57,805 bases of DNA from Polaromonas sp. (GTDB lineage Bacteria; Pseudomonadota; Gammaproteobacteria; Burkholderiales; Burkholderiaceae_C). The notes beneath the pieces are model-generated. The model ran no database searches, had not been told where the DNA came from, and saw only the letters and a list, made by a program, of their open reading frames with translations. The stretch covers positions 1-57,805 of the forward strand of contig JAUSDK010000009.1 in the NCBI GenBank assembly GCA_030650875.1, given 5' to 3'. This document shows, piece after piece, positions 15,402 through 55,941 of this stretch. Each line of letters starts with the position of its first letter. Position 1 is the stretch's first letter. The translations under genes were made by a program, and so were the position numbers.

Positions 15402-15422
15402 CGCTCCTGCCCTCGCTGGCGC

Positions 15423-16776: not shown

Positions 16777-16806
16777 GCTGCCATGCAACTGGAAGCTTTT
16801 AAAAGC

Positions 16807-17460: not shown

Positions 17461-17500
17461 CAAGTTTTCTCCAGAGATGTTTGTACTGTACTTGTAATGA

Positions 17501-17527: not shown

Positions 17528-17555
17528 CCCCAGTTTCAGGAGAGCCTGACGGCGA

Positions 17556-38959: not shown

Positions 38960-39088
38960 GGCGGGATTATCCCCCCCGGTCACACCAAAAAAAGCCACTG
39001 CCAGGAGTGGCAACGGCTTGATCATCTTATTTTTTATATCAGCGATATGATTATTTCATGCCTGCCACAGGCCAACACTTAAAGGCAA

Positions 39089-40063: not shown

Positions 40064-40196
40064 GTTGTCTCCGTTAAAAATCATCAAAACCGGTCACGCT
40101 GCGCGCACCACGTGGGTTGCCTGTCGTGTCTCAGGATAAGTTGGCGCCTGTTGCGCGTCGTGCACCACCGTCAAAATACCCTACTGAATGTCTGGC

Positions 40197-41060
40197 TTAT
40201 GCCACTCTGTGGCCTTGCGCCAGCGTGCGTTGCGCCAGGCGCACCACCGGCGCATCGACCATGCGGCCGTCCAGGATGAACACGCCGCCACCTGCCGCCT
40301 CAAAAGCGGCCAGCACGCGCTGTGCCCAGTCCAGCGCGGTGGGCGTGGGCGTGAACTCGGCATTGACCCCGGCCACCTGCGCCGGATGAATGCAGAGCTT
40401 GGCGCCAAAGCCACCGCGGCGCGCGCGCGCGGTGTCCATCTGCAGCTGCGCCATGTCCTGGGTGCCGGGCGTGACGCCATCCACCGGCGGCGCCAATGAG
40501 GCACGGCGCGCGGCCAGCACCACCGCCAGGCGCACCGGCACCAGTTCCGCCTCGTCCGGGCCACACGCCAGCCCCAGATCGGCCTGGAAATCGAGGTTGC
40601 CAAAGGCCAGACGCAGCACCTGCGGCCCCTTGGCCAGTGCATCGATCGCGTCCAGCCCGGCCACCGATTCGATCAGCGGCAGCAAGGCGCCCGCCGGGCC
40701 GATGGCCTGGGCCACCTGCTGCAATCCCGCCAGCGACTCGGCCTTGGGCACCATCACGCCGGCCAGCCCCTGCGCCGTGAGCTGGCCCAACAAGGCCAGA
40801 TCCTCGTCATGAAACGGCGTGCCCAACGCATTCATGCGCACCACCAGCCGCGCCCGGTCGGGCCACGGGAGTTGCGCAAACGCTGCCGCCAGCTGGGCGC
40901 GCGCACCGGGCTTATCAGCCGGGGAAACCGCGTCTTCCAGGTCAATGATGACCGCATCGGCACCTGAGGCCAGCGCCTTGGCGTAGCGCTCGGGCCGGTT
41001 GGCGGGCACAAACAAAAAGGAGCGCGCGCCAGCAAGCGCGGCGTGAGAAGAACAGCTCAT
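40197..41060 (-). CDS. ccl: CitE-like citramalyl-CoA lyase
   Basis: A 287-aa HpcH/HpaI aldolase/CitE-family protein. Conserved residues: Arg in ARSFLFVPANRPERY, Glu-Asp in IIDLEDAVSPADK, Glu in LLPLIESVAGLDAI and the metal-binding Asp in AFGNLDFQADLG. Stand-alone CitE homologues cleave beta-hydroxyacyl-CoAs; in the itaconate route, Ccl splits citramalyl-CoA to acetyl-CoA and pyruvate. That specificity is inferred from the gene set (ich, acyl-CoA dehydrogenase, ict, MmgE/PrpD, ccl). I chose the ATG at 41060, 14 bp after the MmgE/PrpD stop; the longer ORF overlaps that gene. Malyl-CoA lyase activity is the main alternative. Confidence 0.85.
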   Translation of the reverse strand: MSCSSHAALAGARSFLFVPANRPERYAKALASGADAVIIDLEDAVSPADKPGARAQLAAAFAQLPWPDRARLVVRMNALGTPFHDEDLALLGQLTAQGLAGVMVPKAESLAGLQQVAQAIGPAGALLPLIESVAGLDAIDALAKGPQVLRLAFGNLDFQADLGLACGPDEAELVPVRLAVVLAARRASLAPPVDGVTPGTQDMAQLQMDTARARRGGFGAKLCIHPAQVAGVNAEFTPTPTALDWAQRVLAAFEAAGGGVFILDGRMVDAPVVRLAQRTLAQGHRVA

Positions 41061-41074
41061 GGCGTCACCGGCCT

Positions 41075-42436
41075 TCACGCCAGGGGCGCCAGCAAGGCAC
41101 CCACACGCGGCCAGGCGGCCACACCCCACAGCGCATCCACGGCCGCCTGCATCTCGGGCGCGGTCGCACCGCCACTGAAGGCGGCCAGGCGCAAGGCCTT
41201 GGCGGTGATTTCTTCACGGCTCAGGGTATTGCCGGGGTCGCCCTTGGGCTCGTCCACCCGGCCGTGCAAGACACGGCCGTCGGTGGTGTGCACAGTGACC
41301 TTGCCAATCCAGCGCTGGGGGTAGGCGGCATCGACCTCGGGGTCCAGCTCCATGGTGACCCGGTCGCGCAGCGCCTGGGTCGCGTCGTCAATGAAATGCT
41401 GGTCAAACTCGACCAGACCGGCGCGGCCGAATTGCGCCACCAGCGCCAGCACCGTGCCCATGGAGAACTTGCTCTGGTGCACGGTGACCGGGCGCACCAC
41501 CGGGCCCAGCACGTCAATGGCGCCCTGGTGCACGTGGGTCACCACGCGCGCGAGGTCTTCAGGCTGCAGGCCATTCGCGTGAATCACTTGCAAGAGCGCA
41601 TCGGCCGCCGGGTGGGTGTGGCGACACGAGGCGTGAAACTTGAACGAGGTCTCGGCGGTGGCCCAGCGGATGCCCAACCGGTCAGTGAGCTTGGCCGGGT
41701 TGGCGTCGCTGGACATGCCCGCGGCCATGCCCTGCGGGCCTTCCAGAATCTGCGCCGCACCGGTGAAACCGTCCTGGGCCAGGTAAGCGGCCATCAAACC
41801 GGCCGCCGCCGCATGGGCCGTGTGCAACTGCTTGCTGTCGGCAGCGGTGCGCAAAAACTCCCACAAGCCCGCCGCCTGGGTGCCCGCCGAGCCAAAGGCG
41901 TGCTGCATCTGCGCGGCATCCAGCCCGAGCAAGTGCCCCACCGCAGCGGCGGAAGCCAGCGTGCCGGCGGTGCCAGTGGTGTGAAACACCTTGTAGTGCG
42001 AGCGACCCAAAAACTCCCCCACCCGAATGCCGACCTCGTAGCCGGCCACGGAGGCGGTCAGCAACTGCTGGCCGCTGGCGCCGAGTGCCTGCGCCACGGC
42101 CACCGCCGCTGGAAACACCACCGTGGCGGGGTGAAACACTGAGCCGTTGTGCACATCGTCCTGCTCGGCCACATGCGAGGCCGCGGCATTGGCCATGGCC
42201 GCCAGGTACGGGCTGGTGCGAGCGCGGTTGATGATGACTTCGCTGTGGCCGGCCTGCGACCCCATGGCCAGCGCAAAGCGGGTGATGCTGGCCACCGGGC
42301 GCGAGCCGTGGCCGGCCACGGTGGAGCCGAACCAGTCGACCAGCAGGTCTTCGGTCTTGTGGATCACCGACGCGGGAATGTCGGCAAAGCGCAAATTGGC
42401 GGCAAAGGCCGCGAGTTGGGCACCGGGAGTGGTCAT
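41075..42436 (-). CDS. MmgE/PrpD-family protein
   Basis: A 453-aa protein of the family that holds 2-methylcitrate dehydratase (PrpD) and cis-aconitate decarboxylase, the enzyme that makes itaconate in fungi and mammals. The opening LAAFAANLRFADIPASVIHKTEDLLVDWFGSTVAG is typical, and the conserved SFKFHASCRHTHPAADALLQ is present. The same family member lies in the P. aeruginosa itaconate cluster (PA0881), where its reaction was not clear to me. Here it lies between ict and ccl. It could dehydrate or isomerise a branched hydroxy-dicarboxylate feeding the pathway. Family certain, reaction unknown. Confidence 0.9.
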   Translation of the reverse strand: MTTPGAQLAAFAANLRFADIPASVIHKTEDLLVDWFGSTVAGHGSRPVASITRFALAMGSQAGHSEVIINRARTSPYLAAMANAAASHVAEQDDVHNGSVFHPATVVFPAAVAVAQALGASGQQLLTASVAGYEVGIRVGEFLGRSHYKVFHTTGTAGTLASAAAVGHLLGLDAAQMQHAFGSAGTQAAGLWEFLRTAADSKQLHTAHAAAAGLMAAYLAQDGFTGAAQILEGPQGMAAGMSSDANPAKLTDRLGIRWATAETSFKFHASCRHTHPAADALLQVIHANGLQPEDLARVVTHVHQGAIDVLGPVVRPVTVHQSKFSMGTVLALVAQFGRAGLVEFDQHFIDDATQALRDRVTMELDPEVDAAYPQRWIGKVTVHTTDGRVLHGRVDEPKGDPGNTLSREEITAKALRLAAFSGGATAPEMQAAVDALWGVAAWPRVGALLAPLA

Positions 42437-42543
42437 GGGGAGTTCCTGAGATATTTAAGTCAAATTGGCATCAAGCCCTCGTTAAATAACACTTTTTTGC
42501 TATTTAATCAGGAGCATTCAAGCCGACGCTGTGGGTGGCGGGT

Positions 42544-43725
42544 TCAAATCGCGCCGCTGGCCCGCAAGGCCGCAATCGCGGCTTCTGATTGCCCCAGCTC
42601 GCGCAGGATGGCCTCGGTATGCTCACCCACCGCCGGTACCGGGTCCATGCGGTAGTCAAAGGCGTTGTTGCGCCCGGGCGGCAGCAAGGCGGGAATGTCA
42701 CCCGCGGGCGAACCCACGGTGTGCCAGCGCTGACGCGCCTGCAGCTGCGGGTGCGCCCACAGGTCGGCCATGTCGTTCATGCGGGCGTTGGCAATTTGCG
42801 CCTGGTCCAGCCGCGCCACCACCTGCTCAGTGCTGAGCTTGCCAAACAGGTCCAGAATAATGGCCCTGAGCGCCTCGCGGTGCTCATTGCGACTGGCGTT
42901 GCTGTCAAAGCGCGGGTCCACGGCCAGCGCGGCGTCTTGCAGTACCACCTCACAAAACGCCTTCCATTCGCGCTCGTTTTGCAGGCCCAGCATCACTGTG
43001 CCGCCATCGCCCGCGGCGAACGGGCCATAGGGGTAGATGCTGGCATGGGCCGCGGCCGTGCGTGGCGGTGGCGGGGCGCCATCAAACGCGTAATACAGCG
43101 GGTAGCCCATCCACTCGCTCAAGGATTCGAGCATGGAGACATCAATGTGCGAGCCGCGCCCCGTGCGCCCGCGCAGCAGCAGCGCCGACAGGATGTTGGT
43201 GTAGGCGTACATGCCGGCGGCAATGTCGGCCACCGAGTTGCCGGCCTTGCTCGGCACCTCGGGCGTGCCGGTGATCGACAGGAAACCGGCCTCGCTCTGA
43301 ATCAACAGGTCGTAGGCTTTTTTGTCGCGGTACGGCCCGTCTTCACCGTAGCCCGAGATGTCGCACACGATCAGGTCGGGGTGCACCGGGCTCAGTGCCT
43401 CATAGCCCAGCCCCATGCGCGCCGCCGCTCCGGGGGCCAGGTTTTGCACCAGCACATCGGCCTGGCCCAGCAGGGTCTTGAGCGCGGCCAGGGCAGCGGG
43501 CTGTTTGAGGTCCAGCGTCAGGCTTTCCTTGGAGCGGTTGGTCCAGACAAAGTGCGAGGCAAGGCCTTTGACCCGGCTGTCATAAGCGCGCGCAAAGTCA
43601 CCGGCACCGGGCCGCTCCACCTTGATGACGCGGGCGCCCAGGTCAGCCAGCTGGCGCGTACAAAACGGCGCCGCAATGGCGTGCTCCAGGGAAACAACGG
43701 TAATGCCGTCCAGGGGTCGGATCAT
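42544..43725 (-). CDS. ict: CaiB/BaiF family CoA-transferase (itaconate CoA-transferase-like)
   Basis: A 393-aa class III CoA-transferase. The catalytic aspartate lies in GRGSHIDVSMLESLSEWMG, and the N-terminal CoA-binding region is LEHAIAAPFCTRQLADLGARVIKVERPGAGDFARAYD. In the itaconate pathway, Ict of this class transfers CoA from succinyl-CoA to itaconate. I chose the ATG at 43725 because GAGG lies 6 bp upstream; the other ATG (43731) directly abuts it. Oxalate-, mesaconate- and citramalate-specific members look alike, so substrate is inferred from neighbours. A 107-bp AT-rich gap separates it from the MmgE/PrpD gene. Confidence 0.85.
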   Translation of the reverse strand: MIRPLDGITVVSLEHAIAAPFCTRQLADLGARVIKVERPGAGDFARAYDSRVKGLASHFVWTNRSKESLTLDLKQPAALAALKTLLGQADVLVQNLAPGAAARMGLGYEALSPVHPDLIVCDISGYGEDGPYRDKKAYDLLIQSEAGFLSITGTPEVPSKAGNSVADIAAGMYAYTNILSALLLRGRTGRGSHIDVSMLESLSEWMGYPLYYAFDGAPPPPRTAAAHASIYPYGPFAAGDGGTVMLGLQNEREWKAFCEVVLQDAALAVDPRFDSNASRNEHREALRAIILDLFGKLSTEQVVARLDQAQIANARMNDMADLWAHPQLQARQRWHTVGSPAGDIPALLPPGRNNAFDYRMDPVPAVGEHTEAILRELGQSEAAIAALRASGAI

Positions 43726-43767
43726 GCTCATCCTCGGTCAGTGGGTGCTTTGGGTTTCAGGGTGGGT

Positions 43768-44928
43768 TCAGAACGACCTGGGCAAGCCCAGGATGTGCTC
43801 GGCCACATAGGAGTAAATCAGGTTGGTCGAGATCGGGGCCACTTGGTACAGGCGCGTCTCGCGGAACTTGCGCTCCACGTCATATTCGCAAGCAAAGCCA
43901 AAACCGCCGTGATACTGGATGCAGACATTGGCCGCTTCCCAACTGGCCTTGGCCGCCAGGTACTTCGACATGTTGGCCTCGGCACCGCAGGGAAGGTGTG
44001 CGTCAAACAACTCGCAGGCCTTGAAGCGCATCAGATTGGCGGCCTCCAGCTCGATGTAGGCGTCGGCAATGGGGAACTGCACACCCTGGTTCTGGCCAAT
44101 CGGGCGACCAAACACCACGCGGTCCTTCACGTACTTGGTCACGCGGTCAATGAACCAGTAGCCGTCGCCAATGCACTCGGCGGCAATCAGCGTGCGCTCG
44201 GCGTTCAGGCCGTCCAGGATGTACTTGAAGCCCTTGCCTTCTTCGCCGATCAGGTTTTCTTCCGGGATTTCGAGGTTCTCGAAAAACAGCTCATTGGTTT
44301 CGTGGTTGACCATGTTGGGGATGGGGCGAACGGTCATGCCGGTTTTTTCGGCCAGGCGCAGGTCCACCATGAAGATGGACATGCCTTCGGACTTTTTCTT
44401 GACGTCGGCCAAGGGCGTGGTGCGGGCCAGCAAAATCATCCAGTCGGAGTGCTGCACGCGGGAGATCCAGACCTTTTGGCCGTTGATGACGTAGCGGTCG
44501 CCTTTTTTGACGGCCGTGGTCTTGATTTTGGTGGTGTCCGTGCCGGTGGTGGGCTCGGTCACCCCCATGGACTGCAGACGCAGGTCGCCGCTGGCGATCT
44601 TGGGCAGGTAAAACTCTTTTTGCGCTTTGGAGCCGTGGCGCAGCAGAGTGCCCATGTTGTACATCTGGCCGTGGCAGGCGCCGGAGTTGCCACCGCTGCG
44701 GTTGATTTCCTCCATGATGACCGAAGCCTCGGCCAAGCCCAAGCCAGAGCCGCCGTACTCGGCCGGTACCAGCGCGGCGAGCCAGCCGGCTTTGGTCAGG
44801 GCGTCGACAAAGGTCTCGGGGTAGGCGCGCTGCTGATCGATCTTGCGGTGGTATTCATCCGGAAACTCGGCGCACAGCGCACGCACGGCATCACGGATGT
44901 CTTGGTATTTGTCAGGGGTGTGTTGCAT
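43768..44928 (-). CDS. Acyl-CoA dehydrogenase
   Basis: A 386-aa FAD-dependent acyl-CoA dehydrogenase. Signature stretches: LRLQSMGVTEPTTGTDTTKIKTTA (FAD and substrate loop), KVWISRVQHSDWMILLART, and the C-terminal IQYHGGFGFACEYDVERKFRETR, where the Glu of ACEYDVER is placed like a catalytic base. A homologue (PA0879) lies in the P. aeruginosa itaconate cluster. It could oxidise a saturated C5 acyl-CoA such as methylsuccinyl-CoA into the pathway; this is inference. It lies 42 bp before ict and 34 bp after ich on the same strand. Confidence 0.92.
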   Translation of the reverse strand: MQHTPDKYQDIRDAVRALCAEFPDEYHRKIDQQRAYPETFVDALTKAGWLAALVPAEYGGSGLGLAEASVIMEEINRSGGNSGACHGQMYNMGTLLRHGSKAQKEFYLPKIASGDLRLQSMGVTEPTTGTDTTKIKTTAVKKGDRYVINGQKVWISRVQHSDWMILLARTTPLADVKKKSEGMSIFMVDLRLAEKTGMTVRPIPNMVNHETNELFFENLEIPEENLIGEEGKGFKYILDGLNAERTLIAAECIGDGYWFIDRVTKYVKDRVVFGRPIGQNQGVQFPIADAYIELEAANLMRFKACELFDAHLPCGAEANMSKYLAAKASWEAANVCIQYHGGFGFACEYDVERKFRETRLYQVAPISTNLIYSYVAEHILGLPRSF

Positions 44929-44962
44929 GGTGGGTCAATGAAGAGGTCAAAAAGATGGGAAC

Positions 44963-45847
44963 TCAAGCCAGTTCGACGCTGCCTTGCATGGTGAGCCAAC
45001 CGTCATGGTCTTGGGCCCAGACGCGCACGGTCTTGCCATCTGTCGAGGGCTGCGCGTTGAGGCGAAACGGGTGCAGGTCAAAGGTCGGGCGCACTGCCTT
45101 GAAGTCAAAGCGTTGGATGAAGGCGCCCGGCGCATGGCGGCGTACCAAGTCGACCAGCAGCGTGGCAATCAGTGGGCCGTGCACGATCAGGCCGGGGTAG
45201 CCTTCCACCTCGGTCACGTATTTGCGGTCATAGTGGATCCGGTGGCCATTAAAGGTGAGCGCCGAATAGCGAAACAGCAGCACGTCGTCCGGCACCACTT
45301 CGCGCTGCCAGGCGGCGCCGGGCTCGGCGGCCACAGGCGGCGGCACCGGGTCGGTGGATTGGGCGGCAGCGCGGTAAACAATGTCGTGCTCCTCGGTCAG
45401 CGCCAGGCCCCGGGCGTTGTGCACCGCATGCTTGACCAGCACAAACAGCAGGTCGCCAGTGCGCCCGGCCTTGTGCGTGACCGACGCAATGGTGGAGATG
45501 CGCTGCACCGCATCGCCTACCACCAGCGGATTTTCGGACTGCCATTGCAGGCGACCTCCGGCCCACATGCGCCGCGGGAGCGGCACCGGCGGCAGGAAAC
45601 CACCGCGCTTGGCGTGACCGTCGGGGCCAATCTCGCTCTGGCGGTGCTGCGGCAAAAAATACAACCAATGCCACAGTGCGGGCAACGGCGTGCCGGGCAC
45701 GGGCAAGGGGTCATCGCGGTCCAGCGTGGCGCTCAAGGCGCGCACGGGCGCGGCCGTGATGTCGTCGGTGAGGGTTTCGGTCTTACCAACCCAGCTTTGC
45801 AGGTGGGCCAGCGTGGCGGCGTCGAGGGTGCGCAGGTCGTTGCTCAT
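44963..45847 (-). CDS. ich: MaoC-type hydratase, itaconyl-CoA/mesaconyl-CoA hydratase-like
   Basis: A 294-aa double-hotdog protein of the mesaconyl-C4-CoA hydratase / HTD2 type. The C-terminal half has the hydratase motif FNGHRIHYDRKYVTEVEGYPGLIVHGPL. The N-terminal half is the degenerate hotdog with LPALWHWLYFLPQHRQSEIGPDGHAKRGGFLPPVPLPRRMWAGG. Ich of P. aeruginosa hydrates itaconyl-CoA to citramalyl-CoA; mesaconyl-C4-CoA hydratase of the hydroxypropionate cycle also makes citramalyl-CoA. The neighbouring ict and ccl favour the itaconate role. I chose the ATG at 45847 (MSNDLRTLD); it lies 14 bp after the receptor gene stop. Confidence 0.85.
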   Translation of the reverse strand: MSNDLRTLDAATLAHLQSWVGKTETLTDDITAAPVRALSATLDRDDPLPVPGTPLPALWHWLYFLPQHRQSEIGPDGHAKRGGFLPPVPLPRRMWAGGRLQWQSENPLVVGDAVQRISTIASVTHKAGRTGDLLFVLVKHAVHNARGLALTEEHDIVYRAAAQSTDPVPPPVAAEPGAAWQREVVPDDVLLFRYSALTFNGHRIHYDRKYVTEVEGYPGLIVHGPLIATLLVDLVRRHAPGAFIQRFDFKAVRPTFDLHPFRLNAQPSTDGKTVRVWAQDHDGWLTMQGSVELA

Positions 45848-45861
45848 GATGATGTGCCGGT

Positions 45862-46869
45862 TCAGTCCACCGAGGCGCCGGAGGTTTTCACGATGCGCGC
45901 CCATTTGGCGATATCTTCATTCAACAGGGCGCCAAACTGCGCGGGGGTCACCGGCTTGTCGGCCGTGCCCGCCAGTTCCACCCCCTGCTGCTCCAGCTTG
46001 TCGCGCAGGTCTTTGGCCGCCAGGGTCTTGTTCATGGCGTCACTGAGTTTGTTGAACACATCTTGCGGCATGCCGGCGGGGGCAAACAGGCCGATCCACA
46101 GCGTGCCGTTGTAGCCTGCCACGGTCTCGGTCAGCGCTGGCACATCGGGCAGTACGGGCGAGCGGGTCGCACCACTGACCGCCAGTGCGCGCAGTTTGCC
46201 GGCCTTGATGTGCGCCAGGGACGAAGGCAAGCTGGCGAACAGCATCGGCAACTGACCGCCCAGCACGTCATTGAGCGCAGGCGCCACCCCCTTGTAGGGC
46301 ACATGCTGCAGGCTGACACCGGCCATGGTGTTGAGCATTTCGCCCAGCAGGTGGTTCAGCGTGCCGTTGCCCGCAGAGGCGTACTGATAGAAGCCCGGCT
46401 TGCTCTTGGCCAGCGCCAACAACTCCGGCACGGATTTGGCCGGGAACGAGGGGTGCACCAGCAGGACATTGGGCACGGCGCCAATCAGGCTGACCGGGTT
46501 GAAGTCCTTGACCGGATCGAAACCGGCGTTTTTGTACAACGCGGGGTTGATGGCCTGGCTGCTGCTGATGGTCATGAGCAGGGTATGACCATCCTTGTTG
46601 GCCTTGGCCGCCAGCTGCGTGCCGATGTTGCCACCCGCACCGGGCCGGTTCTCCACCACCACGGAGGCGCCGAGCACCTCACCCAGTTTTTGACTGACCA
46701 CGCGCCCGACGATGTCGTTGGTGCCGCCTGCGGCCTGCGGCACGATCATGACGATCGGACGGCTGGGCCAGGCCGACTGCGCCCAGGCGGAGGCACCGGT
46801 GGCCAAGGCCGTGAGCAGCATGGCGGTGAAGGCGCGGCGGCCCCAATGTTTGTAAGCGGATTTGCGCAT
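45862..46869 (-). CDS. Bug/TctC-family periplasmic receptor (first gene of catabolic operon)
   Basis: A 335-aa periplasmic binding protein. The signal peptide begins MRKSAYKHWGRRAFTAMLL and contains a twin arginine (GRRAF), so Tat export is possible. The ligand loop is IVMIVPQAAGGTNDIVGRVVSQKLGE. AGGAG lies 8 bp before the ATG at 46869. It starts the operon that encodes the hydratase, dehydrogenase, CoA-transferase and lyase, which points to the same carboxylate substrate. The shared 42-bp operator-like sequence lies 50 bp upstream. No TctAB genes are adjacent. Confidence 0.93.
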   Translation of the reverse strand: MRKSAYKHWGRRAFTAMLLTALATGASAWAQSAWPSRPIVMIVPQAAGGTNDIVGRVVSQKLGEVLGASVVVENRPGAGGNIGTQLAAKANKDGHTLLMTISSSQAINPALYKNAGFDPVKDFNPVSLIGAVPNVLLVHPSFPAKSVPELLALAKSKPGFYQYASAGNGTLNHLLGEMLNTMAGVSLQHVPYKGVAPALNDVLGGQLPMLFASLPSSLAHIKAGKLRALAVSGATRSPVLPDVPALTETVAGYNGTLWIGLFAPAGMPQDVFNKLSDAMNKTLAAKDLRDKLEQQGVELAGTADKPVTPAQFGALLNEDIAKWARIVKTSGASVD

Positions 46870-46918
46870 GGTCTTGACTCCTAGTGAGATGGATGTTCGC
46901 CGCGCGATTGACAAAGTG

Positions 46919-46960
46919 CAATCTCTGATTTCAGAACCGGCACTTCAGATTATCCGAAGG
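46919..46960 (-). promoter_or_regulatory. Operator-like sequence shared with the liv operon, copy A
   Basis: On the minus strand this 42-bp stretch contains TTCGGATAATCTGAA (a 15-bp near-palindrome) followed after 7 bp by TTCTGAAATCAGAGATTG. An aligned sequence lies upstream of livK at 55248-55289, with about 70% identity and no gaps. Both end 50-54 bp before the first ATG of their operons. The palindrome resembles IclR-type or other dimeric operators; the regulator is not known. This copy lies between the Bug receptor and the divergent alcohol dehydrogenase and could serve both. Confidence 0.55.
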
Positions 46961-47102
46961 GCTGCACCCCGGTCAGGGCCAGGAGATCAGGGTTTTCCCG
47001 GCTCCAAAATCGCAGAAGGGTGGGTCGCAAAAATACCAAGACCCTGGCGGCCCACGCGGGCCTAGACTGGCGCGCTGAAGACCACATTTGGAGACCACCA
47101 CC

Positions 47103-48227
47103 ATGAAGATCCGAGCCGCAGTGCTGGAAACCATCGGCGCACCTGCGCCCTACGCGCAGAGCCAGCCGCTCAAGATTCGCGAGGTCGAGCTGGCCCCGCC
47201 CGGCCCCGACGAGGTACTGATCCGCGTCCGCGCCGCCGGCCTATGCCACTCCGACCTGTCGGTGATCTCGGGCGACCGGCCCCGACCCGTGCCGATGGTG
47301 CTGGGCCACGAGTCCGCCGGCGAGGTGATCGAATGCGGCCCAGGTGTCACCGACCTCGCGCCAGGCGACCGGGTGGTGCTGGTGTTCATGCCCAGTTGCG
47401 GCTGCTGCATGCCGTGCATGGAGGGGCGTCCAGCCCTGTGTGAGCCCGGCGCGGCCAGCAACGGCGCGGGTACCTTGCTCTCGGGCGCGCGTCGCCTGAG
47501 CCTGAACGACCAGCCGGTCTACCACCATGTGGGGGTGTCGTGCTTTGCCGATTACGCGGTGGTGTCGCGCCGCTCGTGTGTCAAGCTGGAGGCCGACATC
47601 AGCTTCGAAGAAGCGTCGCTGTTTGGCTGCGCCGTGCTGACCGGCGTGGGTGCGGTGATCAACACCGCGCGTCTGCAGGCCGGCACCACGGCGGCGGTAT
47701 TGGGCTTGGGCGGCGTGGGCTTCAGCGCCCTGCTCGCCGCCGTGGCCAGTGGCGCGCGCCAGGTGATTGCGCTGGACTTGAACGAAAGCAAACTGGCCCT
47801 CGCAAGTGAGTTGGGTGCCACCGCCACCGTCAATGCGGGTGACCCGGACGCGATGGAACAGGTCAAGGCGCTGACCCAAGGGGGTGTAGATGTGGCGTTC
47901 GAGATGGCGGGGGCGATTCCGGCGATGGAGCTGGCTTGGCGCATCACGCGGCGTGGCGGCAGCACGGTAACGGCCGGTTTGCCGCACCCGGACCGTCGCT
48001 TTGCCCTGCCGCCGGTGCAACTGGTGGCCGAAGAGCGCACGCTGCGCGGCAGCTACATCGGCTCGTCCGTGCCGGCGCGAGACATTCCGCGCTACATCGA
48101 GATGTACCAGCGCGGCAAACTGCCTGTGGACCGACTGATGGGGGAAAGGCTGACGCTGGAAGACATCAACCGCGGCTTTGACCGGATGGCCAGCGGCATG
48201 TCCCTGCGCGATGTGATCGTGCCCTGA
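47103..48227 (+). CDS. Zinc-dependent alcohol dehydrogenase
   Basis: A 374-aa medium-chain dehydrogenase of the class III / aryl-alcohol type. Catalytic zinc ligands: Cys in GLCHSD and His in VLGHESAGEV, with a third Cys expected in SLFGCAVLTGVGAVINTA. The structural zinc site is four cysteines in CGCCMPCMEGRPALC. The NAD-binding motif is VLGLGGVGFSALLAAVASGARQVIALD, and the Asp at its end favours NAD over NADP. I chose the ATG at 47103 with GGAG 9 bp upstream; the TTG at 47088 is unlikely. It is divergent from the itaconate-type operon and may share its operator. Confidence 0.93.
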   Translation: MKIRAAVLETIGAPAPYAQSQPLKIREVELAPPGPDEVLIRVRAAGLCHSDLSVISGDRPRPVPMVLGHESAGEVIECGPGVTDLAPGDRVVLVFMPSCGCCMPCMEGRPALCEPGAASNGAGTLLSGARRLSLNDQPVYHHVGVSCFADYAVVSRRSCVKLEADISFEEASLFGCAVLTGVGAVINTARLQAGTTAAVLGLGGVGFSALLAAVASGARQVIALDLNESKLALASELGATATVNAGDPDAMEQVKALTQGGVDVAFEMAGAIPAMELAWRITRRGGSTVTAGLPHPDRRFALPPVQLVAEERTLRGSYIGSSVPARDIPRYIEMYQRGKLPVDRLMGERLTLEDINRGFDRMASGMSLRDVIVP

Positions 48228-48241
48228 CACGACGCTGTGAC

Positions 48242-48272
48242 CACCCAACCGCCCTCCACGGGCGATTGGGTG
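48242..48272. terminator. Bidirectional hairpin between convergent genes
   Basis: CACCCAACCGCCC and GGGCGATTGGGTG form a 13-bp stem with one mismatch and a 5-nt loop, between the stops of the alcohol dehydrogenase and the SDR gene. There is no T run on either side, so termination efficiency is uncertain. Confidence 0.6.
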
Positions 48273-48279
48273 AGCCGGG

Positions 48280-49029
48280 TTAAACGGTACGCGCGCCGTC
48301 CACCGGAAACTCGACCCCGCTGATGAACTCCGCATCGTCACTGCCCAAGTACACCGCCGCGCGGGCAATGTCCTTGGGCTGGGACAGGCGCCCCAGCGGA
48401 ATGGTGCTGATGAACTTCTGACGGTTCTCGGGCGTGTCGGGCATACCCATGAAAGACTCCAGCAAGCCAGTGGCCCCCATCACCGGGCAAATGGCGTTGA
48501 CCCGGATGTTGTCAGGGCCGAGCTCCACCGCCATGGATTTGGAGAGCAGGTTCACTGCGCCCTTGGAGCTGTTGTACCAGGTCAGGCCCGGACGCGGGCG
48601 GATACCGGCCGTGGAGCCGATGTTCAAAATCACGCCGCCGCCCTGCTTGCGCATGATCGGCACCACGGCGTGGGTCATGTGAAAGATCGACTTGACGTTG
48701 ATGTCGAACACTTTGTCAAACGTGGCTTCGTCCACCTCCAGCATGGGCTGGTTCTTGTGGGTCCAGCCGGCGTTGTTGACCACAATGTCCAGCCGGCCAA
48801 ACTTGGCGATGGTGGCAGCGACCAGCGCGTCAATCGCGGGGCGCTTGGTCACGTCGCAGCCCACTGCAATGGCGTTGGCGCCCAAGGCGTCGGCCACGGT
48901 TTTGGCACCGGCCTCGTTGATGTCGGCCACCACCACCAGGGCGCCCTCCAGCACATACTGGCGTGCAATCTCGGCACCAAAACCACTGGCGGCACCGGTC
49001 ACGATGGCGACTTTGTCTTTCAATCTCAT
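48280..49029 (-). CDS. Short-chain dehydrogenase/reductase (SDR)
   Basis: A 249-aa classical SDR. Cofactor motif VTGAASGFGAEIARQY with Asp in VVADINEAG (favours NAD), NNAG at about residue 87, and the catalytic Ser in NIGSTAG and Tyr-Lys in YNSSKGA. I chose the ATG at 49029 (MRLKDKVAIVTG). It is the last gene of the liv-aldehyde dehydrogenase operon, 54 bp after the aldehyde dehydrogenase. It probably oxidises a hydroxyl group of the imported compound or an intermediate; the substrate is unknown. Confidence 0.93.
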   Translation of the reverse strand: MRLKDKVAIVTGAASGFGAEIARQYVLEGALVVVADINEAGAKTVADALGANAIAVGCDVTKRPAIDALVAATIAKFGRLDIVVNNAGWTHKNQPMLEVDEATFDKVFDINVKSIFHMTHAVVPIMRKQGGGVILNIGSTAGIRPRPGLTWYNSSKGAVNLLSKSMAVELGPDNIRVNAICPVMGATGLLESFMGMPDTPENRQKFISTIPLGRLSQPKDIARAAVYLGSDDAEFISGVEFPVDGARTV

Positions 49030-49083
49030 GGGGTTCTCGCTTTCAATAAAACAGTTCAGAAAAATCAAAAAAAATACATACCA

Positions 49084-50520
49084 TCATTCACCGTGGTACT
49101 GAACCACGGTCTTCACGTTGCAAAACTCTTCCAGTGCCATGAAGCCTTTTTCACGGCCATGGCCGCTGCGCTTGACGCCGCCAAACGGCAGCTCGACACC
49201 ACCACCGGCACCGTAGCAGTTGATGTAGACCTGGCCGCATTGCATGCGCTTGGCCATGCGGATCTGGCGCCCCCCGTCGCGCGTCCAGATGCCGGCCAGC
49301 AGGCCAAAATCAGTGGCGTTGGCCAGCGCAATCGCGTCTTCCTCGTCGTCAAACGGAATCACGGCCAGCACCGGGCCAAATACCTCCTCGCAAGCCAACT
49401 GGTGGTCGCGCGGCACCGCGCCAAAGAGCGTGGGCGCCACATAAAAGCCGCCGACCGGCACGCCGTCGGCCACCGTGCCCTGGGCCAGCACCGCGATGCC
49501 GCTATCAACGGCGCGCTTGATGAAGCCCTCGACCCGCTTCTTCTGGTCGGCATTGATCAATGGGCCGCAGTCGCGGTCCATGGCCGGGGCGCCGGCGGAT
49601 GACTGCTTGAAGCGCTCCACCACCTGACCCACAAAGCGGTCGTAAATCGAGCGCTGCACCAGCAAGCGGCTGCCGGCCGAGCAGGTCTGGCCGCCGTTTT
49701 GCGTGATGGCCTTGAGCACAAACGTGGCCGCGCGGTCCAGGTCGGCGTCTTCAAACACGATCTGGGGCGACTTGCCGCCCAGTTCCAGCACGCACTTGAG
49801 GGTACGGTTGGCGGCGGCCTTTTGCACCAGCGTGCCGACCTCGGGCGAGCCAGTGAAAGTCACAAAATCAATGTCATGGTGGCCGGTGAGCGCGGCACCG
49901 GCTTCTTCGCCCAGCCCGGTCACCACATTGAGCGCGCCGTCGGGCAAGCCCGCCTCGCGCGCAATGTCGCAAAACGCCAGGGGCGTGAGGCAGGCGTCTT
50001 CAGACGGTTTGAGCACCGCAGCATTGCCCATGGCCAGCGACGGCACGACCGAGCGGCCAAACATCTGCGCCGGGTAATTCCAGGGAAGGATGTGCGCCGT
50101 GACACCATAGGGCTCACGCAGCACCACCACATGGAAGTCATTGAGGTAGGGAATCTGCTGGCCGTGCACCTTGTCAGCCGCACCGCCATAAAACTCGCAG
50201 TAGCGGGCCGACACAATGATGTCGTTGCGCGCCTGGGAGATGGGCTTGCCGGTGTCACGCGACTCCAGCAGGGCCAGGGCATCGACGCGCTCCAGCATGA
50301 TCTGGGACATCTTGCTCAGGATGCGGCCCCGCTCGGTGGCGGTCAGACGCCCCCATGGGCCGCTCAACGCCGCGCGCGCGGCGGCCACCGCTTTGTCAAT
50401 GTCGGTCGCGTTGCCGCGGGCCAGGGTTTCAAACACCTCGCCGGTGCTGGGGTCGATCACGGGCAAGGTCTGCCCGTTGCTGGCGGCCACCCACTGGCCG
50501 TTGATGAAATGTTGGGCCAT
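49084..50520 (-). CDS. NAD-dependent aldehyde dehydrogenase
   Basis: A 478-aa aldehyde dehydrogenase. General-base Glu in VLELGGKSPQIVFEDADLD, catalytic Cys in NGGQTCSAGSR, and cofactor-binding ILPWNYPAQM and TFTGSPEVG. The length is normal. It oxidises an aldehyde to a carboxylate; with the nearby alcohol dehydrogenase it would complete alcohol to acid. It lies 39 bp after livF and before the SDR on the same strand, so it should be co-transcribed with the importer. The substrate is not readable from sequence. Confidence 0.95.
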   Translation of the reverse strand: MAQHFINGQWVAASNGQTLPVIDPSTGEVFETLARGNATDIDKAVAAARAALSGPWGRLTATERGRILSKMSQIMLERVDALALLESRDTGKPISQARNDIIVSARYCEFYGGAADKVHGQQIPYLNDFHVVVLREPYGVTAHILPWNYPAQMFGRSVVPSLAMGNAAVLKPSEDACLTPLAFCDIAREAGLPDGALNVVTGLGEEAGAALTGHHDIDFVTFTGSPEVGTLVQKAAANRTLKCVLELGGKSPQIVFEDADLDRAATFVLKAITQNGGQTCSAGSRLLVQRSIYDRFVGQVVERFKQSSAGAPAMDRDCGPLINADQKKRVEGFIKRAVDSGIAVLAQGTVADGVPVGGFYVAPTLFGAVPRDHQLACEEVFGPVLAVIPFDDEEDAIALANATDFGLLAGIWTRDGGRQIRMAKRMQCGQVYINCYGAGGGVELPFGGVKRSGHGREKGFMALEEFCNVKTVVQYHGE

Positions 50521-50559
50521 AAGGGGCTCCTCAGGTTAAAAATAAATGATGGACCACGA

Positions 50560-51237
50560 TCAGTGCACCGCAGCAGCGGCTTCGTCCAGCTGCAACTCGC
50601 CACGCTCCAGCACCATGGTTTTGTCAGGAATGTCCTTGAGCAGGCTGCGGTTGGACTCGGTGATCACCACGCACAACTCAGGCCGGGCTTGTTTGAGGCG
50701 CTCCAGTGAGGCTGAATACTGCTGCGCCAACACCGGCGCCAAACCCTGAAACGGCTCGTCCAGCAACACCAGACGCTCACCGGCCATCACGGCGCGGCCC
50801 AACGCCACCATCTTGCCCTGCCCGCCCGAAAGTGCGGCGCCCGAGCGCGGCAGCATCACCCCCAACTCGGGCACGATGGTCAGGGTCTCGGCCAGGCGCT
50901 CGTCTACGGCGCGCCGGCTCATGCCATTGACCTCGCACGGAAAGCGCAGGTTTTCTTCCACGCTGAAGGTGGGGAACAGCACCCGGTCCTCCGGGGCGTA
51001 GCCGATCCCTAAGCGTGCACGGTGGCGGGCCGGCACTTGCGCCAGGTTCTCGCCGTCGAGCAGCACACGGCCCTCATGGCCGGGCAAAAAGCCCATGATC
51101 AGGCGCAACAAGGTGGTCTTGCCGGCGCCATTGCGCCCGACCACGGCGACAATCGAGCCACGCGTAAGCTGGGCCGAGATGCCGCGCAGCACCGAAATAC
51201 CGGCAATGGTGGCGGAGATGTTTTCAAGACTCAGCAT
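50560..51237 (-). CDS. livF: Branched-chain-type ABC transporter ATPase LivF
   Basis: A 225-aa ABC ATPase. Walker A GRNGAGKTTLLRL, signature LSGGQGKMVALGRA, Walker B RLVLLDEPFQGLAP. LivF of E. coli is 237 aa. I chose the ATG at 51237, just past the livG stop; an upstream TTG at 51249 would overlap livG. It works with LivG as the heterodimeric energy unit of the importer. Confidence 0.93.
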   Translation of the reverse strand: MLSLENISATIAGISVLRGISAQLTRGSIVAVVGRNGAGKTTLLRLIMGFLPGHEGRVLLDGENLAQVPARHRARLGIGYAPEDRVLFPTFSVEENLRFPCEVNGMSRRAVDERLAETLTIVPELGVMLPRSGAALSGGQGKMVALGRAVMAGERLVLLDEPFQGLAPVLAQQYSASLERLKQARPELCVVITESNRSLLKDIPDKTMVLERGELQLDEAAAAVH

Positions 51238-51238
51238 G

Positions 51239-51985
51239 TCATTCGCCAATCACGTTTTTGACCACGATCGGGTCGCGTAACACCTCTTCGGGCGCACCGT
51301 CGGCGGCGATACGGCCCGCAATCCACGCGCACAGGCGGGTGGCGTAGCGGCGCACGATGTCGATGTCGTGTTCCACAAAAATACTGGTGACCTGGCGCTC
51401 GTCCAGCGCGCGCATCAGCACTGCCATGAGGCCATGTTTTTCGTCAGTGGACACGCCGCTGGTGGGCTCGTCCATGATCATCAGCTTGGGGCGCAGCACC
51501 AGGGCCATGGCCACATCGAGCAGCTTGCGCTGACCCTCCGGCAAGGACCCCGCCAAGTCATGAGCGCGCGCGCTCAATTGCAGCAACTCCAGGGTCGCGT
51601 CCACCTCGTGGGCGTCCACCGCCTGGGTGAGTGGCAAGAAGAAGCCGTGCTTTTGTTTGACCGACGAGGCCGCCAGCATCAGGCATTCACGCACCGTGTG
51701 CTCGGTAAACACCTGCGGCAACTGGAACGAGCGCCCCACGCCGCGCCGCGTGATCGCGCGGGGTGTGTGGCCAGTGATGTCCACCGCGTCAAACAGCACC
51801 GTGCCAGACGTGGGCTTGAGGTAGCCGGTACAGATGTTGATGAAGGTGGTCTTGCCGGCGCCGTTTTGCCCGACCACCGCCAGGCGTTCGCCGGGCTGCA
51901 GGTCAAAGTCAATCGCATCGGCCGCCACCACCCCGCCAAAGGACAGCGAGAGCCCACGGGTGGAGAGTAATCCGTAGCCGCTCAT
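51239..51985 (-). CDS. livG: Branched-chain-type ABC transporter ATPase LivG
   Basis: A 248-aa ABC ATPase. Walker A GQNGAGKTTFINICTG, a signature region LPEGQRKLLDVAMAL (family variant of LSGGQ), Walker B PKLMIMDEPTSGVS, and the switch His in SIFVEHDIDIV. Its ATG overlaps the livM stop by 4 bp, so translation is coupled. Partner of LivF. Confidence 0.94.
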   Translation of the reverse strand: MSGYGLLSTRGLSLSFGGVVAADAIDFDLQPGERLAVVGQNGAGKTTFINICTGYLKPTSGTVLFDAVDITGHTPRAITRRGVGRSFQLPQVFTEHTVRECLMLAASSVKQKHGFFLPLTQAVDAHEVDATLELLQLSARAHDLAGSLPEGQRKLLDVAMALVLRPKLMIMDEPTSGVSTDEKHGLMAVLMRALDERQVTSIFVEHDIDIVRRYATRLCAWIAGRIAADGAPEEVLRDPIVVKNVIGE

Positions 51986-52917
51986 GCCGACCTCCCGGGG
52001 CGCAGACGCCGCTCAATCATGCCAAACACTCCCGTGGGGGCCACAAACACCATCACCAACAACACCAAGCCCATCACCAGCTGCCAGGCTCCCGTCAGCA
52101 GGGCTGCCGCATACAGCTTCATGAACTCGAACACAAAGGCGCCAATGAACGCCCCCAGCGCATGGCCGGAGCCGCCCAAAATCGCAATGAAGACCAGCTC
52201 GCCCGAGCGCACCCAGTAACCCATCTCGGGGGTGACCAGGCCCTGCGTCAGGGCAAACAGGCTGCCGCCCAGGCCGCACAGCGTGGCGGCCAACACATAG
52301 CCGCCCCAGAACACGCGCTTGGCCGAAATCCCCAGATACTCCAGCCGGGTCTCATTGGTCTTGATGGCCGCCAGCGCCTGACCCGATACGCTGGCAAAGT
52401 AGCGCTGCACCACCCAGCCGGCGATGATCGACAAGACTAGGGCCAGCACCAGCAAGGCGGTCTCGAACGGTTCGCGCTCCAGGTGCACAAAGCCCAGCGT
52501 GGGCCGGTCGAACCGCAGCCCGTCGGTGCCGCCGGTGAAGCCGCCGAACTTGCCCAGCACCGAGAACAACACCATCGACAGCGCCAGGTTCAACATGCCA
52601 AAAAAGATGCCGCGGTAGCGCACGATGAACAAGCCGATCACCGCCCCCGCCAGGGCAGCAAAGAGGCAACTCAGCGCAATCAGCAGCAAGGCATCCAGAT
52701 GCCAGGCGCGGGCCAGAAAGGCCGCGCTGTAACCGGCCAGGCAGGCAAACATGGCGTTGCCAAACGAGACCTGGCCGGCCCGGATCAGCACAATCACGCC
52801 AGAAACGGCCAGGCCATTGGCCAGCGCCAGCAAGATCGGCGTCTTGAGCCAGGGAAAAGTGAAGGCCAGTCCCAGCACTGCAGCCGCCAACACCGCAATC
52901 AACAATCGCAGTCGCAT
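51982..52917 (-). CDS. livM: Branched-chain-type ABC transporter permease LivM
   Basis: A 311-aa inner-membrane permease with about 9-10 hydrophobic segments. Typical LivM features are RAGQVSFGNAMFACLAGYSAAFL, the region RYRGIFFGMLNLALSMVLFSV, and AIKTNETRLEYLGIS, which contacts the ATPases. I chose the ATG at 52917, which overlaps the livH stop (TGATG). The C-terminus is basic (IERRLRPGRSA). Confidence 0.94.
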   Translation of the reverse strand: MRLRLLIAVLAAAVLGLAFTFPWLKTPILLALANGLAVSGVIVLIRAGQVSFGNAMFACLAGYSAAFLARAWHLDALLLIALSCLFAALAGAVIGLFIVRYRGIFFGMLNLALSMVLFSVLGKFGGFTGGTDGLRFDRPTLGFVHLEREPFETALLVLALVLSIIAGWVVQRYFASVSGQALAAIKTNETRLEYLGISAKRVFWGGYVLAATLCGLGGSLFALTQGLVTPEMGYWVRSGELVFIAILGGSGHALGAFIGAFVFEFMKLYAAALLTGAWQLVMGLVLLVMVFVAPTGVFGMIERRLRPGRSA

Positions 52918-53822
52918 CAAATTCTCCTGGTGGCCGCGGTAGAAAACAGGCCCTCGGGTCGCACAAGCAGTACCCCCACCATGATCAGGTAGGGCACCAG
53001 CACTTCAACTTCAGGCATCAGGTAGACCGCAAAGGAGCGTGTCAGCCCGATCATCAGCGCGGCCAGGGCCGCGCCGCCAATTTGCCCCAGGCCACCAGTG
53101 GCCACCACTGCAAAGGACAGCACCATCATTTCGGCCCCAATGCCCGGGGTGAACGAGGTGGTGGGCGACGCCAACGCGCCGCCTAAAGCGCCCAGCGCCC
53201 CGCCCACCGCGATGGTGAGCCAGGTGACTCGCCCGGTGTTGACACCCATGGCCGTGGCCACCTCACGGTGGTGCGTCACCGCCGTGACTTGGCGGCCCAG
53301 CGCGGTGCGCCCGAGAAACCAGCGCAGGCCAAAAAACGCCAGCACCGCCACCGCGGGCAGCACCAGCAACTGGTAGCGGGTGTAGGTCACACCCGCCACG
53401 CTGAGTGTGCCGAGCTGGGTGACCACGTCTGACACAAATACAGGCTGCACGCCCCAGATCATGCGTTGCAGGTCTTCGAGCACCATGAAGGCGGCGAAGG
53501 TCACCAGCAGTTGGAGAATGGGGTCTTTGTCCAGAATTCGGCGCAGCAGCGCAAATTCCAGCACCGTGGCCAGAAAGACACCAATCACGATGGCCGCCAC
53601 AAACAGGGCGGGAAGTCCCAGCAAGGGCGACAAGCCGAAATGGGTGATGCCGACACCCAGCGTGGCTGCAAAGTAGCCACCCCAGGCATACAGGCTGCCG
53701 TGCGCGATGTTCAAAATACGCATCACCCCAAAAATCAGGGTAAGGCCCAGCGCCACCAGAAACAGCAGGGCGGCGTAGGACACGCCGTCCATCAAGGCCA
53801 GGGCAAACAAGCTTGAATTCAT
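52917..53822 (-). CDS. livH: Branched-chain-type ABC transporter permease LivH
   Basis: A 301-aa inner-membrane permease. The opening MDGVSYAALLFLVALGLTLIFGVMRILNIAHGSLYAWGGY is the LivH signature, and the ATPase-contact loop is RQVTAVTHHREVATAMGVNTGRVTWL. A hairpin between livK and livH (53853-53881) may reduce transcription of the membrane and ATPase genes relative to livK. Confidence 0.94.
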   Translation of the reverse strand: MNSSLFALALMDGVSYAALLFLVALGLTLIFGVMRILNIAHGSLYAWGGYFAATLGVGITHFGLSPLLGLPALFVAAIVIGVFLATVLEFALLRRILDKDPILQLLVTFAAFMVLEDLQRMIWGVQPVFVSDVVTQLGTLSVAGVTYTRYQLLVLPAVAVLAFFGLRWFLGRTALGRQVTAVTHHREVATAMGVNTGRVTWLTIAVGGALGALGGALASPTTSFTPGIGAEMMVLSFAVVATGGLGQIGGAALAALMIGLTRSFAVYLMPEVEVLVPYLIMVGVLLVRPEGLFSTAATRRI

Positions 53823-53852
53823 GGAAGAAGTCGGTTCGAAGAGGAAAGACGG

Positions 53853-53881
53853 ACTGGCTCACCACAGCGCGGCGAGCCAGT
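53853..53881 (-). other. Hairpin between livK and livH
   Basis: ACTGGCTC and GAGCCAGT form an 8-bp perfect stem around a 13-nt loop, just after the livK stop. There is no T run. Such hairpins downstream of receptor genes often stabilise the upstream messenger or attenuate the rest, giving an excess of receptor. Confidence 0.4.
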
Positions 53882-53892
53882 GGCGGGTCAGG

Positions 53893-55194
53893 TCACTTGA
53901 AGTCGTAGCTCTTCAAGCGATCGCTCTTGAGGACATCGGCCTTGAGGGTCTTGACCCAGGCGACGGATTTTTGGCCCACCGGGGTGGTGACCAGATCGGC
54001 AGGCACCAGCACCATCTTGTCCATCACGGCAAACGGGTACTGGGGCACACGCTTGGTAATGCCCAGCAACTGAGCCTCCAGGCCCTGGCCGTCCTCACGC
54101 ATGGTAACGGTGCGGCCATAGGCCTTGAACTCCATCTTGCGCATGGCATCGGCCACTTGCTCGCTGCTCGGCCACTTGCCGCCGTTGGCCTTGATGGCGC
54201 TCTCGTACCCGGTCTTCAAACCAACCAGGGCCTGCGCCATGTGGTAAGTGGGATAGATCGGGTAGGCACCGGTCTTGGCGCGGAACTTGGCCACAAAGTC
54301 CTTGTGTGCCGGCTCGTCCTTGGTCTCGGGGTGCAGGAAGTAATGGTCGCCGCGTCCACCCACGATCACGCCTTCAGGCATGGTCGCGCCCAGACGCTCG
54401 AGCGAGCTTTCAGCCAAAGGCAACACCATGGTGGCGCCCTGCGTAAACAGACCGCGTTGTGACGCCTGACGCACAAAGGTATCAAGGTCACCACCCCAAG
54501 AGGTGTTGAGCACCACATCGGGCCGCAAGGCTTGCAGACGGCTGATTTCTGTCGAGAAGTCGGACGCTCCCAACTTGGGGAACATCTCGGCCACGACCTT
54601 CACGTCCGGCTTGAAGGCCTTGAGGGTGTTGAGGAAAATCTCCCACGAGTCGCGGCCCCAGGCGTAGTCCTGGTTAACCACGGCAATGGTGGAGAAATTG
54701 GGTTTGGTCTTCAAGAGGTACAGCACCGTAGCAACCATCTCGGTGGTGGCGTTGGCCTGGGTGCGCACCACATACTTGTAGCGCTTGTCTTCCAGCACTT
54801 TTTCAGTGCCGCAGTCCCACATGACGTTGAGCACCTTCAAATCTTCGGCCACGGGCGCGACGATGTTGCAGTTGCCGCTGGAGATGGCGGACAGCATGGT
54901 ACGAACGCCCTGCTCCTGCACCAGACGGCGGTATTCGCTGAGCAGTTTATCGCCGCCGATACCCTCGTCAATGTAGGTTGCGGCAACCTTGACGCCACCA
55001 ATGCCGCCCTTGGCGTTCATCTCGTCAATGAGCAACTCGGCGGCCGCCTTGGCAGGCACGCCAAACACGGAAGCTGCGCCTGAAGTGAAGGTGGTGATGC
55101 CGATTTTCAACTCGGCAGGTTTGTCCTGGGCTTGCGCCAGACCAGAACCCAAGGTCATCACGGCAATGGCCGTCAGCGTTTTCAATAGTTTCAT
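53893..55194 (-). CDS. Branched-chain-type ABC transporter substrate-binding protein LivK-like
   Basis: A 433-aa periplasmic type I binding protein (Peripla_BP_6). The signal peptide is MKLLKTLTAIAVMTLGSGLAQAQ with cleavage after AQA. The mature part has LKIGITTFTSGAASVFGVPAKAAAELLIDEMNAKGGIGG and VVNQDYAWGRDSWEIF. AGGAGG lies 4 bp before the ATG at 55194. It is the first gene of the importer operon. LivK relatives in this family bind many things besides leucine (aromatic acids, amides, urea), and the catabolic dehydrogenases downstream suggest a carbon substrate rather than an amino acid. The operator-like sequence shared with the itaconate-type operon lies 54 bp upstream. Confidence 0.92.
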   Translation of the reverse strand: MKLLKTLTAIAVMTLGSGLAQAQDKPAELKIGITTFTSGAASVFGVPAKAAAELLIDEMNAKGGIGGVKVAATYIDEGIGGDKLLSEYRRLVQEQGVRTMLSAISSGNCNIVAPVAEDLKVLNVMWDCGTEKVLEDKRYKYVVRTQANATTEMVATVLYLLKTKPNFSTIAVVNQDYAWGRDSWEIFLNTLKAFKPDVKVVAEMFPKLGASDFSTEISRLQALRPDVVLNTSWGGDLDTFVRQASQRGLFTQGATMVLPLAESSLERLGATMPEGVIVGGRGDHYFLHPETKDEPAHKDFVAKFRAKTGAYPIYPTYHMAQALVGLKTGYESAIKANGGKWPSSEQVADAMRKMEFKAYGRTVTMREDGQGLEAQLLGITKRVPQYPFAVMDKMVLVPADLVTTPVGQKSVAWVKTLKADVLKSDRLKSYDFK

Positions 55195-55247
55195 CATGCC
55201 TCCTGTTTGATTCAGGCTTGAATGATGGCTCCTTGGACCGACCGCCA

Positions 55248-55289
55248 CAATCTCTCATTTCAAAACTACGACTTCGGAAATCCCGAAGG
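55248..55289 (-). promoter_or_regulatory. Operator-like sequence shared with the itaconate-type operon, copy B
   Basis: On the minus strand it contains TTCGGGATTTCCGAA, a 15-bp palindrome with perfect six-base arms, then TTTTGAAATGAGAGATTG. It aligns without gaps to 46919-46960, with about 70% identity over 42 bp, and lies 54 bp before the livK ATG. Confidence 0.55.
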
Positions 55290-55567
55290 ATTTCAGGGTT
55301 TACACGAGTATTCAACGATGTACTTTGAGCTCACTGATTTTCGTCTTGGTTGCGAATGAAGGAAGCCTCACCCATGCCACTCAACGCCGACAGTCTGTTA
55401 TCACACTGTTGGCGCTCTTGGTCAATTTCAGGTAGGAGCCAACAGCACAGCACTTCTTTACTTCTTTGTTTCGTTGACCATGTTTGCCCGCTTTCCTCCC
55501 AGTCTCAAGATGGCATGGCCCACCGCTGGCACTTCACGGGCGTGCCGATCCGTCTTGCTGCGCTTGG
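55290..55567. other. Stretch without recognisable genes upstream of livK
   Basis: About 280 bp with no supportable ORF. The plus-strand ORF at 55350-55898 runs antisense to two gene remnants and has no recognisable domain. The minus strand here reads like a frameshifted continuation of the metallophosphoesterase remnant but I could not match it to a family. Confidence 0.4.
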
Positions 55568-55732
55568 TCAAAGATTCGGGATTGACCTCCATCGTCTCGG
55601 TGTGCTAAAAATCATCAATGGCGCTTGCAAGTCACCGAGGAGGATGACGGCGGTAGGTTGGTGCTCCTGGACGGCTTCGATGATGTGGCCGAATTGCCCG
55701 TGCGGGTCGCCGCAAAACAGGATCGCGGTCAC
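55568..55732 (-). pseudogene. Metallophosphoesterase remnant
   Basis: From a GTG at 55732 the minus strand reads TAILFCGDPHGQFGHIIEAV and then AVILLGDLQAPL. GDPHG and GD are the first metal-binding motifs of calcineurin-like phosphoesterases. The frame then turns to unrelated sequence and stops after 54 codons, while family members have well over 150 residues with further His motifs. The start overlaps the stop of the upstream antitoxin-like remnant by 4 bp, so the two were once an operon. Confidence 0.65.
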
Positions 55733-55935
55733 TCGATACCACCTTGCTGAGCCAATCTCTGCGCTGCGCATTCAACATTACGCGTCTCATCAAAGCCGCT
55801 TTCATAAGCCTCCACCAGTAGACCCAACGCTTCAAGGCGGTCGGCCTCCAATGTGCCGCGTTGTGGGTCTACGTCCACCAAAGCAGAAACGATCTTGAGC
55901 GTAGCCTTGTAGTCGGCCTCATTTTGGATAAGCAG
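55729..55935 (-). pseudogene. HigA-type antitoxin-like remnant
   Basis: The minus strand reads LLIQNEADYKATLKIVSALV, then DVDPQRGTLEADRLEALGLL and VEAYE, which matches the N-terminal part of HigA/XRE antitoxins (EADYKAAL..., EGDRLEVL..., VEAYE). It has no start codon: the frame opens right after the stop of the aldo/keto reductase. The usual helix-turn-helix after VEAYE is missing, and the frame ends 23 codons later. No toxin gene is visible. Confidence 0.65.
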
Positions 55936-55941
55936 GGGGCC

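Follow-up and report, generated by a model that had tools for sequence, protein, structure and literature searches.

The two 42-bp sequences at positions 46919–46960 (site A) and 55248–55289 (site B) of the window, the whole 57,805-nucleotide stretch of Polaromonas sp. DNA analyzed here, are very probably copies of one promoter activated by a LysR-type transcriptional regulator (LTTR), designated LysR1. The two copies would jointly switch operons A and B, and a weaker third site would serve the alcohol dehydrogenase gene (Table 1). The two-part form of the site, its promoter spacing, its conservation and, in relatives, its constant pairing with a LysR1 gene were observed; LysR1 binding, activation and an inducer at A and B are what we infer.

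Table 1. Features of the window related to sites A and B
Feature	Position	Strand	Basis or remark
LysR2 gene, intact, end of operon A, sister clade	38000..39025	-	Pfam HTH_1 + LysR_substrate; tree
Operon A: tctC1, ich (MaoC), mcd (acyl-CoA dehydrogenase), ict (CoA transferase III), mmgE/prpD, ccl (HpcH/HpaI), tctC2	39089..46869	-	itaconate/methylsuccinate type
Site A, putative -10 hexamer GAACAT, 17-bp spacer	46893..46898	-	A2/T6 in 97% of 38 sites
Site A, putative -35 hexamer TTGCAC	46916..46921	-	invariant/near-invariant CAAT end of 42-mer
Site A, activation half TCTGAAATCAGAG (TCTGA-N2-TCAGA), centre about -43	46923..46935	-	sequence; conserved block beside -35, 38 sites
Site A, recognition half CTTCGGATAATCTGAAG, centre about -65	46943..46959	-	sequence; palindrome kept in relatives
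Weak third site facing alcohol dehydrogenase gene (42-mer on minus strand)	47001..47042	+	third best in window, 33-site motif
Putative -10 TAGACT of alcohol dehydrogenase promoter, at predicted 17-bp spacing from third site	47063..47068	+	sequence, motif
Zinc alcohol dehydrogenase; frame listed from 47088, ATG likely near 47104	47104..48227	+	reading frame, domains
Operon B: livK, livH, livM, livG, livF, aldehyde dehydrogenase, SDR	48280..55197	-	domain matches
Site B, putative -10 hexamer CATCAT, 17-bp spacer	55222..55227	-	38-site alignment
Site B, putative -35 hexamer TTGTGG	55245..55250	-	38-site alignment
Site B, activation half TTTGAAATGAGAG	55252..55264	-	38-site alignment; sequence
Site B, recognition half CTTCGGGATTTCCGAAG, perfect 6-bp arms	55272..55288	-	38-site alignment; sequence
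LysR1 gene remnant of some 30 codons, frameshifted by an 8-bp deletion and followed by unrelated sequence	55318..55390	+	tblastn with G132 protein, DNA alignment

Two copies of a probable promoter element

Sites A and B align without gaps and are identical at 31 of the 42 positions (74%), a likeness far above chance and stronger than the roughly 70% that an earlier note on this DNA had estimated by eye. The next best match to either copy within the window is 23/42. The same note had described unlike flanks, nearly equal distances to the first start codons (50 and 54 bp) and, in copy B, a palindrome with perfect six-base arms. The alignment bears out these descriptions: the flanks of A and B are unlike, the start codon lies 50 bp from site A (ATG at 46869) and 51–54 bp from site B (ATG at 55197 or 55194), and the palindrome CTTCGG-N5-CCGAAG is perfect in B and imperfect in A. 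Occurrence at many unrelated places in the genome, by which the note proposed to judge the motif, was not observed. In the 3.23-Mb assembly to which the window belongs (291 contigs, 87.6% complete), the consensus of the 31 positions, with up to three mismatches allowed, matched only A and B, and the reversed pattern, used as a control, gave no match. The motif is confined to this cluster in the assembly, since the motif model R1 gave no site beyond A, B, and the third site at E values up to 1 (150 of the 866 candidates scored).

The 42 bp comprise most of what would be an LTTR-activated promoter: the upstream palindrome, another pair of half-sites some 21 bp further downstream, and a -35 element, TTGnnn, read from the invariant end of the 42-mer, which is ATTG in the sense direction. 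Exactly 17 bp past the -35 element lies a -10 element, absent from the earlier note, with A at its second and T at its sixth position in 97% of the 38 aligned sites. The shared promoter form, TTGnnn-17-nAnnAT, is of a weak sigma-70 type and adjoins the activation site. The upstream site contains a T-N11-A dyad (TCGGATAATCTGA in A and TCGGGATTTCCGA in B). The centres of the recognition and activation halves are 21.5 bp apart, at about -65 and -43 as counted from a start predicted to lie about 7 bp beyond the conserved -10 element, near 46886 in A and 55215 in B. The recognition site of an LTTR is usually found near -65. The layout predicted for A and B is the usual two-site arrangement of LTTRs, with a recognition and an activation site (PMC11739112, PMC5002191), and sites of this kind are well known; no described motif of the present kind was found in the open-access literature.

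In the mechanism that we propose, one dimer of a LysR1-clade tetramer would hold the palindrome at about -65, and an inducer would bring the other dimer onto the activation half, which lies some 21 bp further downstream and adjoins the weak -35/-10 promoter. Operon A, for itaconate/methylsuccinate breakdown, and operon B, for ABC-type uptake with an aldehyde dehydrogenase and an SDR, would be turned on together, and the divergent alcohol dehydrogenase gene would be served by the weaker third site.

Conservation in relatives and the third site

Among 300 further genomes of the family, the pattern was found in one, G132, which belongs to another genus. It occurs there twice, 8.3 kb apart, before the same two operons and arranged as in the window. 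Between the window and G132, the assemblies of which are both fragmented and incomplete with some estimated contamination, site A differs at seven positions and site B at four, and all 11 differences lie outside the 21 positions that relatives conserve (P = 0.0002), which shows that A and B were under constraint during most of the period after the two lineages parted. That time includes a period in which LysR1 was still present, and the conservation of the sites cannot date the loss of LysR1. When the MaoC gene of operon A was used to retrieve loci from relatives, these carried related sites between a divergent LysR-type gene and a MaoC or TctC gene.

For an independent motif, 33 sites were taken from other genomes, and neither the window nor G132 contributed to it. 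Its two best places in the window were A (44.2) and B (41.7), the maximum of 60 dinucleotide shuffles being 17.8. When the -10 element was included, the scores were 50.2 for B, 49.1 for A, and 6.6 for the third site, with the next place at -4.0. The shared regulator site claimed in the earlier note is thus backed both by the independent motif and by conservation in relatives. The third site was also found by model R1 (E 0.10), as was the orthologous place in G132 (E 0.018), which reads CTCCGG-N5-CCGGAG. The alcohol dehydrogenase gene, which the earlier note had joined to the regulon, appears to have a weaker site of its own and not to share site A. Another weak match, at 39086–39127 beside the LysR2 gene (14.4 with the 42-bp motif), was rejected; it lies in the coding end of tctC2 in the wrong orientation and drops out of the top places when the -10 element is included.

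A regulator clade paired with the site

In a tree of 97 LysR proteins, LysR1 falls in a clade of 43 members (support 100/98), and 38 rows lie on the side of LysR2. Each of the 43 LysR1-clade genes has the site, always in one orientation, in the intergenic region between the gene and its divergent neighbour; the scores came from a model without the sites similar to the one scored. The LysR1 genes that were fetched by protein similarity alone all have the site, and most of them lie next to the MaoC, TctC or acyl-CoA dehydrogenase gene in an operon related to operon A. The site of this clade usually faces an itaconate/methylsuccinate operon, and in G132 an intact LysR1 gene and livK are transcribed away from each other at site B. 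In relatives, the regulators observed next to the site are of the LysR type, and the evidence points to an LTTR as the probable regulator, more than to an IclR- or GntR-type protein. The earlier note had named the LysR protein at the operon end as one candidate. That protein (LysR2), however, is a member of the sister group, and of the clade paired with the site this genome shows only a broken gene. No other copy of LysR1 was found in the assembly (87.6% complete, 291 contigs), in which its closest relative is LysR2 (52%; the next is at 41%).

Some further observations were made on these genes. Beyond the break in LysR1, positions 55391–55941 of the window contain no clear gene, and about 140 bp there are 95% identical to a Polaromonas naphthalenivorans plasmid. 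At the locus L031 (8900–9960), a LysR1 gene is interrupted by a single in-frame stop (LEA*AGL), and another lineage may thus also be losing LysR1. The operon-end LysR2 gene is adjoined by a phage-type integrase gene (Phage_int_M, Phage_integrase; 36825–37886), near which no tRNA gene was found.

Possible readers of the sites in the window

Because LysR1 is a remnant here, A and B would now have no regulator at all or be read by a different protein, for which LysR2 is the likeliest candidate. LysR2 is not of the lineage that made the sites and can be regarded only as a possible successor to LysR1. That it now reads A and B, the sites having outlived LysR1, is a tentative reading to which we give somewhat less than an even chance. 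LysR2 is encoded in operon A and is the protein of the assembly nearest to LysR1. The recognition helices of LysR2 (SLPAASTRIKNLE) and of the LysR1 of G132 (SLAAASTRIKSLE) are close, and the LysR1-clade proteins of L150 and L056 also have the proline, yet keep the site; these two break the rule by which a Pro/Ala difference in the helix would be a specificity switch, and that idea was dropped. A and B retain all conserved positions relative to G132. A LysR2-clade gene in a Hydrogenophaga bin (L010, 8700–9960) occupies the LysR1 position over a LysR1-type site, but is itself truncated after about 180 residues. G134 has LysR2 without LysR1 and both gene sets nearby, but its site pair is only marginally alike (20/30, with a shuffle maximum of 20). 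Moreover, 35 of the 38 LysR2-side genes have no site upstream, the exceptions being L010, L112, and the marginal, wrongly oriented match in the window, and those beside a similar operon (L073, L082, L110, and L112) have variant sites. The LysR2 sites differ from group to group, and no single consensus for them emerged. A LysR2 protein encoded at the operon end could act at a distance, and hence the missing upstream site lowers the claim of LysR2 without excluding it.

It is rather unlikely, though conceivable, that LysR1 was lost without replacement and that the sites are decaying relics whose promoters are unregulated or hardly run. The remnant beside B and the lack of a second copy in the assembly agree with such a loss; the absence of changes at conserved positions since the split from G132 (P = 0.0002) does not, although LysR1 was present for part of that time. 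We consider it unlikely that an intact LysR1 exists in the organism and is missing from the assembly, or that the break is an assembly fault. The incompleteness and fragmentation of the assembly would allow the former. As for the latter, the 8-bp deletion precedes the break within one contig, which is unexpected from an assembly join, and the 140 bp beyond the break are those matching the Polaromonas plasmid.

It is very improbable that A and B resemble each other by chance, which is excluded by the alignment within the window and by the motif derived from relatives only, or that one is a functionless copy of the promoter region of the other. The two could stem from a single ancestral operator that was duplicated as operon B moved in between LysR1 and operon A; such common descent is likely, yet it is compatible with function, and both sites keep the conserved positions. 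We can practically dismiss a transcription terminator or RNA element in place of an operator, since a terminator scan flags site B (CTTCGGGATTTCCGAAG TCGTAGTTTT) but not site A, the whole 42 bp and the -10 spacing are conserved rather than the stem only, and the stem lies upstream of the promoter.

Operons A and B as a probable regulon

An LTTR-activated promoter shared by the two operons would place them in one regulon, as the earlier note had proposed. This is well supported by the genomic arrangement in relatives: G132 has the same site pair, and the genes of operons A and B are close together in G132 and G134. In G081 (L194, C1:832000–851999) they form a single apparent one-strand operon in the order acyl-CoA dehydrogenase, CoA transferase, PrpD, HpcH, livHMGF, aldehyde dehydrogenase, SDR and, last, livK. 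The linkage in these three genomes supports one pathway. Close relatives of LivK were found in only 5 of 251 genomes of the family. LysR1 faces operon A directly in relatives, and the liv operon and the alcohol dehydrogenase gene intervene in the window and G132. An operator stands at the head of each operon, as if a cassette had been inserted at, or together with, a copy of the ancestral operator.

The itaconate/methylsuccinate cluster of Cupriavidus necator and Pseudomonas aeruginosa comprises five enzyme types (PMC12290011). Operon A probably holds all five enzyme genes of such a cluster, although the NCBIfam cut-offs were not reached: it resembles the known cluster in having an itaconyl-CoA hydratase, a methylsuccinyl-CoA dehydrogenase type, a CoA transferase, an MmgE/PrpD isomerase type, and a citramalyl-CoA lyase. 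It differs in the TctC-type binding proteins, the linked liv/aldehyde dehydrogenase/SDR operon and the alcohol dehydrogenase of the window. We presume that a reduced precursor is taken up and oxidized by the products of operon B and the alcohol dehydrogenase, and that it enters the pathway as methylsuccinate or a similar acid. An extra operon for uptake and alcohol/aldehyde oxidation would in this way be tied to the itaconate/methylsuccinate pathway, hinting at a reduced C5 substrate.

RipR/ItcR is a LysR-type regulator of an itaconate cluster. It is only distantly related to LysR2 and LysR1: structures of RipR match LysR2 at E 1.5e-8, and for LysR1 no match was found at E 1e-8. Known systems of like layout are divergent regulator/operon pairs such as IlvY-ilvC and MetR-metE, which have two tandem inverted-repeat sites and a T-N11-A core (PMC5002191). 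A and B share with them the two tandem inverted-repeat sites before the activated gene, the divergent regulator gene and T-N11-A; in contrast to these pairs, the sequence is another, two operons would be controlled, and the regulator's own gene is broken. With these sites, a LysR clade that seems not to have been described before, and that lies beside the itaconate/methylsuccinate operon in Comamonadaceae and relatives, gains an operator and promoter open to testing, and a broken regulator beside intact operators may be a natural case of regulation lost or handed to a sister protein.

Two variations on the arrangement were observed in relatives. In L141, L143, L016, L134, and others, the first ATG lies only about 6–10 bp past the conserved -10 element, so that the operon transcript would be leaderless or nearly so. 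In a genome of the same genus (L167 in G201, 9324–18706), LysR1 together with its site adjoins an SDR/TctC/acyl-CoA dehydrogenase gene group that is neither operon A nor operon B, suggesting that LysR1 has been redeployed there.
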